Of a DNA stretch of 28,004 nt, positions 13,480 to 26,122 are shown in pieces. The DNA comes from a virus: IMG/VR virus record IMGVR_UViG_3300042472_000180, positions 1 through 28,004 of that record; one strand, given 5' to 3'. The notes below the pieces were generated by a model, which did not search any database, was not told the DNA's origin, and was given only the letters and a program-made list of their open reading frames with translations. The translations under genes and the position numbers were made by a program. Positions within the stretch are counted from its first letter, which is position 1. Each line of letters starts with the position of its first letter.

Positions 13480-14541
13480 TTAAAATGGTGTTTTAGTTTC
13501 TTCTTGATCAGGGAATTGAAAGTCATCATCAGGTAATGGGTATTGAAATTTTGGAAGATCAGAAATCTTTTTTTTGCCTACTGCTGCATTCTCAAAGTAG
13601 TCAAATCCATCCTTCCCCATGTATCTATTCTTCTTTCTGTTGAAGTCTATTGTGATCTCAAAGGGAATACCTACTAGCTTCTGCTTCTTGATCTTATCCG
13701 TTTTGATTATGACTGTGGTATCATTTGGATCTGTTGCCCTGTTAGGTCTCCATACTGAGATAGAATTGTCTGTGCTATCCGCAAAAGTACCACCACCTTT
13801 GATTTGGTACAGGGAAGGTGGAGGGTAGTTTCCATCCTTTTCCTTCCTAGGTGTAGTTTGGTGCATCACTAGGTGGTAGGATACATTGTTTTTTCTAGTG
13901 AAGTTGATCCTGTCCATCATGAACCTAGATGCATACAGGTGTTCAGGTTCTCCTGCTGTCATCTCATGTCTTATCTTGATGTAGGGATCTACTACCACAG
14001 CCTTGACATCCTTCTCCCACACTAGGAATTCAAATACAGATTCAATCTGATCTATGGTGAAATCAGGCACACCATTCTTCTCAGGGTAGACAAAGAAAAA
14101 GGAGTCCTTTACCATGTCAAAAGCCTTCAAGTATTCCTGCTCACTCACATCAAAATTTTTGTAATACCTATCTGTGCTTTTCCCCAGGATAGTGTGAATT
14201 ATGTCATCAAAGAATTCATCAGGTGGGTAGTTCTCAGGGCTAAAGAATGCGAACTTCCACCCTTCATTTATTGCCTTCAATACACATAGAAAGATCAAGA
14301 ACTGTGACTTCCCTTCATTGTTGTATCCTGTCCACAGATTGAATTCTCCTGCCTTCCATGACCACATCTTGTTTTGTATCCCTCCACTACTGATTTGATC
14401 TAGGTCTCTAACATAGGTCTTAGATCCTGCCTCCTTACCCTTCCTGAAGTTCTGTAGCATTGAGTCTCTCTGCCCTGCAAAAGTTTTGATTGATGCCTCA
14501 CAGAATTCTAGGTCAAAGATCTTTTCTGATTTCTTTTTCAT
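13480..14541 (-). CDS. RecA/DnaB-fold replicative helicase-like ATPase
   Basis: A 353-aa protein with Walker A GYNNEGKS (residues 72-79), Walker B AVVVDP (181-186), and a motif 3-like 'LVMHQ' (224-228), followed by 'KGGGTFADSTDNSISVWRPN', which resembles the C-terminal ATPase domain of DnaB and Twinkle-type helicases. The N-terminal DnaB domain is missing, and the C-terminus is an acidic, Pro/Phe-rich tail (about 325-353). It should form a hexamer that unwinds DNA ahead of replication. It starts in an ATGA overlap with a 102-aa gene and lies downstream of a DUF6291-like protein. Together these make a replication initiation module. Confidence 0.82.
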   Translation of the reverse strand: MKKKSEKIFDLEFCEASIKTFAGQRDSMLQNFRKGKEAGSKTYVRDLDQISSGGIQNKMWSWKAGEFNLWTGYNNEGKSQFLIFLCVLKAINEGWKFAFFSPENYPPDEFFDDIIHTILGKSTDRYYKNFDVSEQEYLKAFDMVKDSFFFVYPEKNGVPDFTIDQIESVFEFLVWEKDVKAVVVDPYIKIRHEMTAGEPEHLYASRFMMDRINFTRKNNVSYHLVMHQTTPRKEKDGNYPPPSLYQIKGGGTFADSTDNSISVWRPNRATDPNDTTVIIKTDKIKKQKLVGIPFEITIDFNRKKNRYMGKDGFDYFENAAVGKKKISDLPKFQYPLPDDDFQFPDQEETKTPF

Positions 14542-14847: not shown

Positions 14848-15498
14848 TTACCACCAATTATCTTCTATAGTTGACTTCGGGTACTTAGGTGACTGTACTT
14901 CTGTACTTCCGCTGTATCCTATACTTGCATTATTCTTCAGGTACAGATTAAAGGAGTTCTGTGCTTTGCCTATAGTCATGGCTTCTCCTTCCTTTAGGAT
15001 CTTCCAATTCTTGAAGGCTTCCTTTATCTTCTTTTCATCCAGGTTATAGATCTCCTGCATCCTACTGAAGAATGGTCTATGCATTGGCTTTTCCTTTGTC
15101 ATCTCTACCTCTACTTCATCCAAAGAAATCAAAGTCTCTTTATTTATATCATTTACATTACCATTAACATTTACATTAACAGCTAGATTTGCTACATCAT
15201 TTGTAGCATTGCTAGGTTTTGCTAGACTTTGCTTAGCATTGCTAGACTTTGCTAGACCTCCCTTTTTTCCTGCCTCTGCCCTTTGCTCTTTCTTTTCATC
15301 CCACATCTTCAAATCTCTTTTCAATTGAGTCTTGATAGGAAGGAATGCTACCTTTAATAGCTTATCCTCTGTGATGGGATCTTCATCATTGACATAAGCG
15401 AAAATATGCTTGATCAACTTACCTGCATCTTCATCTGAAAGTTCATCAAAAACTTCCCTCTGATCTGTGTACAAAACGAATGATTTTTTACCCTGCAT
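14848..15498 (-). CDS. DUF6291-like replication-associated protein
   Basis: A 216-aa protein. The N-terminal domain (1-75) reads 'KKSFVLYTDQREVFDELSDE', 'DAGKLIKHIFAYVNDEDP' and 'FLPIKTQLKRDLKMWDEKKE', the arrangement I associate with DUF6291 proteins of phage replication modules. A low-complexity linker (about 78-125: KKGGLAKSSNAK, VNVNVNGNVN) leads to a second helical domain (about 135-190). Such proteins accompany helicases and resemble DnaD-type initiators in layout, so an origin-binding or helicase-loading role is inferred. The start codon lies a few bases after the U-tract of the 15503-15541 terminator, so expression should depend on read-through. Confidence 0.7.
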   Translation of the reverse strand: MQGKKSFVLYTDQREVFDELSDEDAGKLIKHIFAYVNDEDPITEDKLLKVAFLPIKTQLKRDLKMWDEKKEQRAEAGKKGGLAKSSNAKQSLAKPSNATNDVANLAVNVNVNGNVNDINKETLISLDEVEVEMTKEKPMHRPFFSRMQEIYNLDEKKIKEAFKNWKILKEGEAMTIGKAQNSFNLYLKNNASIGYSGSTEVQSPKYPKSTIEDNWW

Positions 15499-15502
15499 TT
15501 TT

Positions 15503-15541
15503 GAAAATAAAAAAGCCCAACAGGTGGTAGACTGTCGGGCT
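15503..15541 (-). terminator. Strong intrinsic terminator placed just before the replication operon
   Basis: On the minus strand AGCCCGACAG (15541-15532) pairs with CTGTTGGGCT (15523-15514), a 10-bp stem with one G-U, an 8-nt loop and a following TTTTTTATTTT tract. The ATG of the DUF6291-like gene is at 15498, only about five bases past the tract. Transcripts from the upstream early genes should stop here unless the structure is disrupted, so it acts as an attenuator for the replication genes rather than as an operon end. Confidence 0.85.
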
Positions 15542-15593
15542 AGGTTGAAATAAACCTTTTGGAATCATGCTTGCTACCACACAGGAATGATTC
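15542..15593 (-). ncRNA. Leader RNA: two hairpins upstream of the attenuator, with loop-loop complementarity
   Basis: Hairpin 1 pairs GAATCAT (15593-15587) with ATGATTC (15568-15562) around an 18-nt loop. Hairpin 2 pairs AGGTT (15557-15553) with AACCT (15546-15542) and abuts the terminator stem. The hairpin 1 loop holds GTGGTAG (15580-15574), and the terminator loop holds the exact complement CTACCAC (15530-15524), so a 7-bp kissing interaction is possible. No known riboswitch class is recognised. Confidence 0.55.
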
Positions 15594-15624: not shown

Positions 15625-15774
15625 TTATCCTACTAGAGAGCGTTTTTTTAATTGATTAAAAATGCACATATAACTCACCCCCATTTCCATAGCTATCACC
15701 TTTGTAGGCACTCGATCCTGCCATTTTTCAAAGATGACTATCTTCTCGTATTCGGTTAGGTTTCTCCTTCTCAT
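15625..15774 (-). CDS. Small HTH DNA-binding protein, 49 aa
   Basis: This gene is below the usual size cut-off but well supported. Its ATG (15774-15772) overlaps the TGA of the 76-aa gene as ATGA. The product begins MRRRNLTEYEKIVIFEKWQD, then 'RVPTKVIAMEMGVSYMCIFN', a typical helix-turn-helix (K-V-I-A-x-E-M-G-V-S), and ends with a basic QLKKRSLVG. It is the last gene before the attenuator-like leader of the replication operon, so a regulatory role is plausible. The target is unknown. Confidence 0.65.
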   Translation of the reverse strand: MRRRNLTEYEKIVIFEKWQDRVPTKVIAMEMGVSYMCIFNQLKKRSLVG

Positions 15775-23519: not shown

Positions 23520-24113
23520 TTAGAATGGTTTTTTGTATCTGTTCCCTTGGTATCTTTCGCTGTATGGTCGGTGATCTTCATAGTCTCCCCTGCCTAGATT
23601 GATAGCCACCTTGTACTGATTAGATACAGGCTGAATAGTAGTTACATCAGATCCTGGGTTCAAGTACTCAGGGTACAGGGTAGAGTTCGCACAGAGATAA
23701 TTGATAGCCCGTTCAGCATACCACTCAGCATATCCCTTGTAGTATTGGCTGATGCTCTGCAATTCTGCAAAGGTAGGTTCTGTGATGTTCTCAGACTTCC
23801 GCTTCACCACTCCCTTATTTACAAATTTATACTGCATAGCCATAGGCAATTCACCTAGGACATAGTTGAATAGGGTATCTGTTAGATAGCTATCTAGGAA
23901 GGTCTTATATACTGCATTCCCTCCTGATCCTATAGTACCTGCTGAAATGAGGGTGAGGATCTTATCATATAGAGCAGTACCACAGATAGGATGGATGTAC
24001 CTGTCCTGTGTCATCTTGATCACCTGAGTGACATTCTTCAGGTCAATATTTGCGGAGGCTACAGTGAAATCCTTGAAGGACTGCTCACTGATCATTAATA
24101 CATTTGCGCTCAT
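23520..24113 (-). CDS. Head-tail connector-like protein, 197 aa
   Basis: The start at 24113 (MSANVLMISEQ) is chosen because it forms an ATGA overlap with the portal stop; an earlier in-frame ATG at 24149 would lie inside the portal gene. The protein has 'TQDRYIHPICGTALYDKILT' and 'FLDSYLTDTLFNYVLGELPM', a pattern of helical phage connectors (head completion proteins), and ends in a disordered, basic, Tyr/Arg-rich tail (about 170-197). It probably caps the portal. DUF6712-like is a possible family name. No enzymatic motif. Confidence 0.6.
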   Translation of the reverse strand: MSANVLMISEQSFKDFTVASANIDLKNVTQVIKMTQDRYIHPICGTALYDKILTLISAGTIGSGGNAVYKTFLDSYLTDTLFNYVLGELPMAMQYKFVNKGVVKRKSENITEPTFAELQSISQYYKGYAEWYAERAINYLCANSTLYPEYLNPGSDVTTIQPVSNQYKVAINLGRGDYEDHRPYSERYQGNRYKKPF

Positions 24114-26122
24114 CGTGATGTCTTTTCTACTACTACATTTCTTTTCCACTCATGTCGGCAGAATGGAGTTCTTTTGCCTGTGTTAGGGTTGGTGTACCAT
24201 CCTCCACACAATTGAAAAACACTATAGCCTAGCTGATTGGATAGGTTTTGAATTTCTTCCCGTGTGAAGAATAAATCTTTTTTTATTAATTCTGAACACA
24301 AAGGTCTTGATGAAGATCCTGGAAGTAAGTCGGGAGCATCTTTTCTTTTCTCATAAGAATAAAGCACTTTGAAGGAAGTCACAGGTTGAAGTCTCTTGAT
24401 AGCTGCTACCCCTGATCGAGTCACGGATCTAGTGATCAAGCCTTCACGGGTGATCTTTTCAACTAGCACCTGATCATCAATCAAAGTATTGATTCTTGAG
24501 ATCACAGATGCTTCATCTATGCCTACTACCTTAGCTATCTGTGGGATTGTTATATTCTCATTCCTTTGGATCTGAGTGATGATCTTCTTCTGTACTTCAT
24601 TGAGCATATACTCAGCAAATAGATCCTGCTTGACAAAATCATCCATGCTAGAGAAGTGTGTCTTTGAACTTTCAATCACTTTGAATTTATCCTTTGCAAT
24701 ACCTTTGCCTTCAAACTTTGATAGGATATTTGCATCATGTTCTGAGATGCTGCATTCAAGGTGGAGGTGATCAGAGAATCCTTGATTAGGATCTGTGATG
24801 ACTTCTGTAGGGGTGACTATTTCAGTCCGTACAGGTAGACCTATCAAGCTACGCAGTTCATTCACATCCATAGACTCCACTACCTTGGTAGCAATCAATG
24901 GGGATAGGCTATTCAATGAGTTGATGATGTCCTGCGCTCCTGCTGTTTCCTTCTTCTCAATTGGTGCAAGTCCTAGCTTCTCTCTGATCTCATCCTGAGT
25001 CATGTTAGTGCTGATGATCTGCTCTGTGAATTGAAAGGAGATAGGTTCAGTCTTCTTGATTTCAAGTTCAGCTATAATGTCATTGAACTTCAAAAGGTAG
25101 TTCACTACTTCCTCTAGGGCTTGCTGCTTTGAATTCACATAGGTGTTCTGAAATAACTCAGAAGCCTCTCTCATTTCAGATCTACCCCCTAGCTGCCCTT
25201 CAGTCTTAACACCGAAAAGCATAGGACTAGTCACCTTATGACCTGTGAAGATCTCCTGCTGTACTGTCTTATTTAGTAGGTCAAAGTGCTTATCTAATTC
25301 AGTCCCTGATAGGTCAATGATGGAAGGTTCATTCTCTTTGCTGTCATTGAATGCCAACATGAATTTTCCTGCATTCTTAGATCCTGAGAACTTGTCTTTG
25401 AATTGTCTTTCAATTCTATCTTCTTCTTCCTGGGATACCTTCCCTCCGTTCAAGTTGATCAACTTGCTTGAGAACATCCCGTTATTTATGGTGTTCAAAT
25501 GGTACTCACCTATAGAGATATCTAGTTCAATGTAAGAGATAGCCCCTCTGTAGTCAGGCAAAGAATAGGTATTCGCTCCTGCTCTGTATTCCTTGAAGTA
25601 TAGGATCTGTGTGCCTGTGGTATTGTTAGGATCAAATGCAGGGTAGGTATCAAAATCAGGTCTAGGGTTGACATTGTCATTCTTGATCCAATTGTCAGAC
25701 ACATAGAATTCACTATTGTCTGCATTTGTTCTCACCTTGTAGTAGTCTACATGATAGAGTTCTGCTATCTCACCCGTGCCCTTTGTCCATATCACCTGAA
25801 GGTAGTAGCCTCCAAAGATGGATAGATCAGTCACTAGCTTCTTTGTCAATTCGTTTAGGCTTTCCTGCTTGGTGTTGATCCGATCAATCAAGCCGAATGC
25901 CTTCGCCTTCTGCATTTCATCTTCAGCCTTGACAGTCCACCCATTGCCACAGATGTAGTCTACCTTGCCCGTGATGATAGCGTTATTCTTTGCGCTATTG
26001 TTATAGATCCGAAGTAGGTAGTTCGGGTAGTCATTCTTTTCCCCGTAGTAGATGTAGTCCTTTCCTTTTACTTCTTTGTAAACGGGCAGAGGCACTTGAT
26101 CAAACTTGAATAATTTTATCAT
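24110..26122 (-). CDS. Portal protein with winged-helix-like segment and Cys/His-rich C-terminal domain
   Basis: A 670-aa protein. The N-terminal 430 residues match phage portals: 'YYGEKNDYPNYLLRIYNNSA', 'FGGYYLQVIWTKGTGEIAEL', and a helical region with 'GVKTEGQLGGRSEMREASEL', the site where portals often have a conserved 'GxL.' element. Residues 502-578 read like a winged helix ('KKIITQIQRNENITIPQIAK', 'VVGIDEASVISRINTLIDDQ'). The end (606-670) has C609, C639, C655 and H657 with 'GGWYTNPNTGKRTPFCRHEW', which resembles the C-terminal part of MuF-type capsid morphogenesis proteins. Portals are dodecameric DNA gates. This one joins three functions in a single chain, more than the usual 400-500 aa. 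Confidence 0.85.
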   Translation of the reverse strand: MIKLFKFDQVPLPVYKEVKGKDYIYYGEKNDYPNYLLRIYNNSAKNNAIITGKVDYICGNGWTVKAEDEMQKAKAFGLIDRINTKQESLNELTKKLVTDLSIFGGYYLQVIWTKGTGEIAELYHVDYYKVRTNADNSEFYVSDNWIKNDNVNPRPDFDTYPAFDPNNTTGTQILYFKEYRAGANTYSLPDYRGAISYIELDISIGEYHLNTINNGMFSSKLINLNGGKVSQEEEDRIERQFKDKFSGSKNAGKFMLAFNDSKENEPSIIDLSGTELDKHFDLLNKTVQQEIFTGHKVTSPMLFGVKTEGQLGGRSEMREASELFQNTYVNSKQQALEEVVNYLLKFNDIIAELEIKKTEPISFQFTEQIISTNMTQDEIREKLGLAPIEKKETAGAQDIINSLNSLSPLIATKVVESMDVNELRSLIGLPVRTEIVTPTEVITDPNQGFSDHLHLECSISEHDANILSKFEGKGIAKDKFKVIESSKTHFSSMDDFVKQDLFAEYMLNEVQKKIITQIQRNENITIPQIAKVVGIDEASVISRINTLIDDQVLVEKITREGLITRSVTRSGVAAIKRLQPVTSFKVLYSYEKRKDAPDLLPGSSSRPLCSELIKKDLFFTREEIQNLSNQLGYSVFQLCGGWYTNPNTGKRTPFCRHEWKRNVVVEKTSR

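Follow-up and report, generated by a model that had tools for sequence, protein, structure and literature searches.

The locus and its gene neighbourhood

The window, by which we mean the whole stretch of DNA that was analysed, is the complete IMG/VR record, 28,004 bases long, of a tailed phage that carries almost all of its genes on the minus strand, among them those for terminase, portal, endolysin, Erf, a Gam-like protein, tail fibre, helicase and a DNA methyltransferase. No integrase was found among the window proteins scanned. Residues 507-552 of the portal protein (window 24110-26122) look like a winged helix-turn-helix domain (HTH_24, E=5e-9). Most relatives found by protein search are phages of Flavobacterium, Cellulophaga, Olleya and Tenacibaculum, which makes a host in the Bacteroidota probable; the helicase is 48% identical to that of Tenacibaculum phage JQ.

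The RNA described here lies between a 49-aa helix-turn-helix-like gene, whose stop codon falls just before the predicted promoter of the RNA, and a DUF6291 gene with its ATG at 15498, with the helicase gene further downstream (Table 1). An earlier note, made from the window sequence, had placed a hairpin attenuator at this position, and its elements are all there, on the minus strand and in front of the DUF6291 gene, although the feature is larger than the note thought. Within the DUF6291 gene, at window 15150-15257, the 10-bp unit TTGCTAGACT occurs about five times and is followed by AT-rich CATTAA repeats; similar iteron-like repeats are present in three related loci (L013, L022 and L027) and different repeats in a fourth (L074). 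We consider it probable that the replication origin lies within the initiator gene, in which case read-through from the leader would transcribe the origin too.

Table 1. Features of the RNA and its flanking genes in the window.
Feature	Position	Strand	Basis or remark
49-aa helix-turn-helix-like gene, directly upstream of the RNA	15625..15774	-	weak PHROG 4629 and Pfam HTH_23 matches
TATATTCG, match to the Bacteroidota -7 promoter box TAnnTTTG, ~10 nt before P1	15603..15610	-	
P1 hairpin, 12-bp stem, 8-nt loop	15562..15593	-	parse of 57 loci
P1 kissing bases GTGGTAG	15574..15580	-	exactly complementary to 15524-15530
P2, weak linker hairpin GGTT...AACC	15543..15556	-	-1 to -4 kcal/mol
P3 terminator hairpin, 9-bp stem (10 with the outer A-T), 8-nt loop	15515..15540	-	terminator scan
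P3 kissing bases CTACCAC	15524..15530	-	covarying with the P1 loop
Terminator T-tract TTTTTTATTTTC	15503..15514	-	sequence; TTTTTTATTT conserved in relatives
DUF6291 replication-initiator-like gene, directly downstream of the RNA	14848..15498	-	PF19808 E=8e-27; PHROG match is a primosomal protein
Replicative helicase (primase/helicase family), same downstream gene cluster	13480..14541	-	PHROG 239 E=1e-27

The RNA in the window

P1 is likely to form the 5′ end of the RNA. Its stem contains two mismatches in the window, whereas most relatives, in which P1 is a 12-bp hairpin with a loop of 8 or 10 nt, have none or one. The loop of this upstream hairpin had been given as 18 nt; in fact the stem has 12 bp and the loop only 8 nt. 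The exact complementarity reported between the two loops is as described, since seven bases of each 8-nt loop are complementary, and simple arithmetic puts the chance of this for two 8-nt loops at about 0.02%; the earlier rough estimate was well under 1%. The leader has a folding energy of -32.4 kcal/mol (z = -3.6), and none of 200 shuffles folded as well. P3 is followed directly by six T residues (15514-15509), the terminator tail being TTTTTTATTTT.

The promoter box is present in nearly all relatives, as TATATTTG, TATATTCG or TATCTTTG; in the part of the literature accessible to us, the TAnnTTTG consensus is named for Bacteroides promoters. Because this conserved box lies only about 10 nt upstream of P1, the RNA is probably made as its own short transcript beginning at P1, and not simply as the leader of a long early message. 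At the other end, the T-tract is only ~10-20 nt from the ATG in the window's family, and the initiator and the genes behind it would consequently need read-through for their expression, as the earlier note had proposed. We considered a leader peptide and rejected it: a short frame through P3 of the window starts in P1 and, as judged by eye, stops after four codons in the CGG class.

Conservation and covariation in close relatives

Viral contigs were scanned with the DUF6291 protein (67 loci) and with an alignment (80 loci), and in both scans essentially every leader whose sequence was available had the same layout. When 57 loci were parsed with a requirement only for GT...AG and CT...AC at the loop ends, leaving the three middle bases free, an exact 7-bp loop-loop match was found in 57/57, in six combinations. 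The match was likewise exact in all 47 distinct related RNAs, again with six different sequences; one position of the kiss shows all four Watson-Crick pairs and another shows three, and there are no mismatches. If the P3 loops of these 47 sequences are dealt out at random, the match survives in 9 sequences on average and in 18 at most. We looked for homologues lacking the loop complementarity, and it was exact in every relative parsed. A scan that required neither a motif nor complementarity gave matches of 7-8 nt in the true leaders and of at most 6 nt in other hairpin pairs.

A covariance model recovered one copy of more than 50 bits per locus; every locus with a complete leader had a single strong copy, invariably placed immediately ahead of the replication gene. 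In the model alignment, stem covariation was 0.363 vs 0.158 when shuffled, and that of the kiss was 0.362 vs 0.084 when shuffled and at most 0.10 when slid, the value of 0.362 being an underestimate because five GGA-class sequences are one base out of place. The P1 helix is paired in 95% of cells and has five pairs changed on both sides, and the P3 helix is paired in 92% and has six such pairs. We are practically certain that the RNA structure is real, and the kissing potential recognised in the window alone is now backed by strong covariation. P2 is paired in only 70% of cells and is absent from distant relatives; all three hairpins of the original description are therefore present in the window, but the RNA is essentially a two-hairpin device in which P2 is weak.

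Does the complementarity extend beyond the loops? On the 3′ side of P1 the next pair fails in 46/47 sequences, so the complementarity ends at the loops, which fits a kiss with both stems intact and speaks against an alternative antiterminator helix. Within the loops only the bases GU...AG and CU...AC, which bound the kissing helix, are invariant, and this bears on the suggestion that the fold senses a ligand. A riboswitch, with P1-P3 as aptamer and terminator, would suit a stable fold in a terminator-bearing leader directly before a gene, but no core is conserved beyond the ends of the kissing helix, the loops and stems differ completely between lineages and distant relatives share no sequence core. 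Nor was there any credible match in Rfam 15: the window had none above the gathering threshold, relaxed thresholds gave only sub-threshold matches, and the leaders of ten relatives matched no RNA family. The earlier note, too, had recognised no known riboswitch motif. We give the riboswitch reading almost no credence. A DUF2693-type RNA, another candidate, had no Rfam match either, and no paper on it was found.

Distant relatives and second copies

The same plan, with unrelated loop pairs of 7-10 nt, occurs before replication genes in eight named, cultured phages. The loops are TGAGAGC/GCTCTCA in elemoC (Flavobacterium) and GTGGTGG/CCACCAC in Harreka_1 (Olleya), and the kiss is of 10 nt in Tenacibaculum JQ, 9 nt in Cellulophaga phi19:3, 8 nt in tooticki6-1, hemulen6-2 and 11b, and 7 nt in FCOV-S1 and phi19:1; Nekkels_1 has an apparent leader, read by eye, with the loops ATTGGAA/TTCCAAT. 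Over nine lineages the loops matched their own partners over 7-10 nt in every case, and a cross match of at least 7 nt occurred in 0/72 comparisons. Loop and stem sequences are wholly different between lineages; in the distant relatives the terminator stem is longer and has an internal loop, the kissing bases lie in the apical loop and an AU-rich linker replaces P2. FCOV-S1 and phi19:1 have only a weak T-tract, and the element may therefore not always terminate.

A TAnnTTTG-type box upstream and a replication gene downstream were found across the family, and this layout was absent from Riemerella RAP44 and from three human-gut phage records of unknown host. The leader also precedes DUF6291 in two Bacteroidota genomes, among four bearing DUF6291 in 395 sampled. 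In two Cellulophaga phages, phi19:3 (L160 2851-2996) and phi13:2 (L257 1850-2000), the polarity is reversed, the 5′ hairpin holding the pyrimidine-rich partner and the terminator loop the purine-rich one.

A genome-wide detector found 11 non-coding clusters vs 8.3 in shuffles over 0.9 Mb, the shuffles having no genes and being little helped by the non-coding filter, and we trusted only clusters at shared positions or directly before genes. It had no match in crAss001, B124-14, 6H, phi38:1, phi39:1, phi10:1, Panino, P12024S or RAP44; it also missed the leaders of phi19:3 and Nekkels_1, which have weak P1 stems and were recognised by eye. There are two probable second leaders, one (L157 598-686) immediately ahead of an endonuclease gene of tooticki6-1 and one (L167 5986-6077) before another gene of FCOV-S1; each has a loop pair of its own, and they argue for a reusable cis leader. 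They also bear on the idea that the RNA serves the origin, its transcript activating or priming replication at the repeats ~240-350 nt downstream with the kiss controlling its length. The iteron-like and AT-rich repeats inside the DUF6291 gene and the constant position before initiator genes would agree with such a role, but the probable second copies do not, and in tooticki and 11b other small genes intervene; we think it very unlikely.

Exchange of loop classes between near-identical phages

When the loop class is mapped on a tree built from the first 330 nt of the DUF6291 gene, at least 26 changes are required where 5 would suffice. The class differs in 22 of the 48 pairs with 94-97% gene identity and, at 90-94% identity, in 84/103, about the same as in distant pairs. 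In the case of L098 and L108, the flanks are 97-99% identical over 270 bp upstream and 100% identical over 400 bp downstream, with the RNA only 67% and the promoter 76% identical, and further upstream other nearby segments also diverge. Only six of the 64 possible middle loop triplets occur, and the same ones recur across the tree. The pattern of loop specificity thus resembles an exchange of alleles drawn from a finite set, which is how an immunity or incompatibility determinant would be expected to behave and which may also reflect general mosaicism. The comparative evidence demonstrates the two hairpins, the kiss, the place before replication genes and the exchange of the whole as a cassette.

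A proposed attenuator of phage replication

What, then, might such an RNA do? That it attenuates the replication genes seems to us reasonably probable, and we lean, with some caution, towards a phage-encoded kissing-loop transcription attenuator that would control read-through into the initiator, presumed origin and helicase, perhaps with feedback in trans. RNA polymerase would start at the TAnnTTTG box and make a P1-linker-P3 RNA of ~90 nt; as P3 emerged its loop would pair with that of P1 to form a coaxial P1-kiss-P3 rod, and the polymerase would stop at the T-tract. The DUF6291 initiator and the helicase would then be expressed, and the presumed origin inside the initiator gene transcribed, only by read-through, and the kiss would thereby set the amount of replication machinery made. 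We infer the transcript ends, the direction in which the kiss affects termination and any action in trans from sequence. Trans action is proposed on the ground that loop pairs are exchanged as cassettes, much like alleles: the terminated RNA could act on nascent leaders of the same loop type, and this pairing might give copy-number-dependent feedback or same-type exclusion. Trans feedback or immunity of this kind is possible but rather doubtful. A kiss within one molecule would sequester both loops and limit action in trans; in addition, the genomes yielded no further site for the loop sequences, and outside the RNA the loop 7-mers were neither commoner than the 7-mers of other classes nor placed at shared positions.

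A bolder and more speculative form of the proposal, which we think unlikely, is that the RNA constitutes an RNA-only replication immunity, of a class new in Bacteroidota phages, in which the terminated RNA would recognise nascent leaders that carry its own allele and stop synthesis of the initiator and helicase. Each phage would hold one loop-pair allele from a finite set, same types would exclude each other, and phages would escape exclusion by swapping the ~130-bp RNA-plus-promoter cassette. Alternatively the RNA could be a purely structural terminator, compact, efficient and nuclease-resistant, that insulates the replication genes in cis from transcription arriving from upstream, with neither regulation nor action in trans. 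Such a terminator would be compatible with a kiss that coexists with both stems, with our failure to find trans targets in the genomes and with use of the element before more than one gene in one phage; but ordinary terminators need no 5′ hairpin partner, and there is no obvious reason why near-identical phages should rapidly exchange the loop class of one. We judge this reading to be unlikely as well, to a similar degree.

By a rough estimate from ideal A-form geometry, an intramolecular coaxial kiss needs 75-83 A, a distance that the 18-22 nt linker spans if P2 is open; with P2 folded the reach is 60-78 A for most lengths, barely or not long enough, and on this estimate P2 may compete with the kiss. 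The pRNA of phage phi29, which is encoded with the DNA packaging motor that it serves, has two hairpin loops that vary in sequence from phage to phage but remain complementary, and it kisses intermolecularly. The RNA described here resembles it as a phage RNA with two complementary, phage-variable loops, but it ends in a terminator beside replication genes, with the terminase genes of the window ~6 kb away. Might it nevertheless be a stand-alone small RNA that acts away from the operon, or one that assembles by P1-P3 kisses into dimers or rings as phi29 pRNA does? The heterotypic complementary loops, the strictly kept stem lengths, the predicted promoter and terminator of its own and the short reach of a linker with P2 folded would all suit this, whereas the easy reach with P2 open, the unstructured AU-rich linker of distant relatives, the probable second copies before other genes and neighbours that are replication and not packaging genes speak against it, and we hold it to be improbable.

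Relation to known systems

The plasmid copy-number attenuators of the pT181/pIP501 type resemble the attenuator that we propose in that loop-loop contact ends transcription early, ahead of a replication initiator gene. There the contact is made by a separate antisense RNA read from the other strand, and none is evident here: no conserved promoter or terminator was seen on the opposite strand, and only one locus (L036) has a chance antisense terminator-like site.

Among phage RNAs, the nearest functional parallels are two, as far as the accessible text of PMC4825925 describes them, and our RNA is a member of neither. In satellite phage P4, pairing within the leader of the replication operon by the CI RNA results in premature termination and immunity (PMC4825925). 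The P4 RNA is likewise a small RNA in a replication-operon leader that pairs within that same leader; however, its partners seqA and seqC lie outside the processed RNA, which is cut out of a longer transcript and acts in trans, whereas the present short RNA contains both partner loops, one of them that of the terminator, and no sequence or Rfam relation was found. IsrK of prophage Gifsy-1 is a short RNA that ends at its own terminator, which is partly read through into the genes behind it; the short form acts on its own longer, read-through form, mainly at translation through an alternative structure (PMC4825925). The likeness lies in a terminated short phage RNA with read-through into downstream genes; in the text available, no terminator-loop kiss is described for IsrK, and its host and genes are unrelated. 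No description of the present RNA was found in the literature searched, subscription journals lying outside its coverage.

The evidence thus points to a previously unrecognised RNA switch that acts on the replication of phage DNA, a widespread structured RNA outside Rfam in the phages of Flavobacteriia, whose gene control has been little studied. With a terminator loop that kisses the first hairpin of its own transcript, a phage would have a simple, modular switch whose specificity is programmable. Should the loop types be immunity or incompatibility groups, this would explain why near-identical phages differ just there, an idea that is testable in cultured hosts.

Two minor observations concern the genes around the RNA. 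In several relatives (L046-L055) the RNA is kept but the gene that follows it has a different N-terminal domain, its match to the window DUF6291 protein being confined to residues 82-216. Several Flavobacteriia phages also have a conserved element like TTTAATAGTTATCGGTAATCTTAAAACCGTTTAAATTATG (L168 ~1584-1620, L157 ~1740-1782 and L075 ~1240-1283) directly 5′ of the small gene that precedes the replication initiator.
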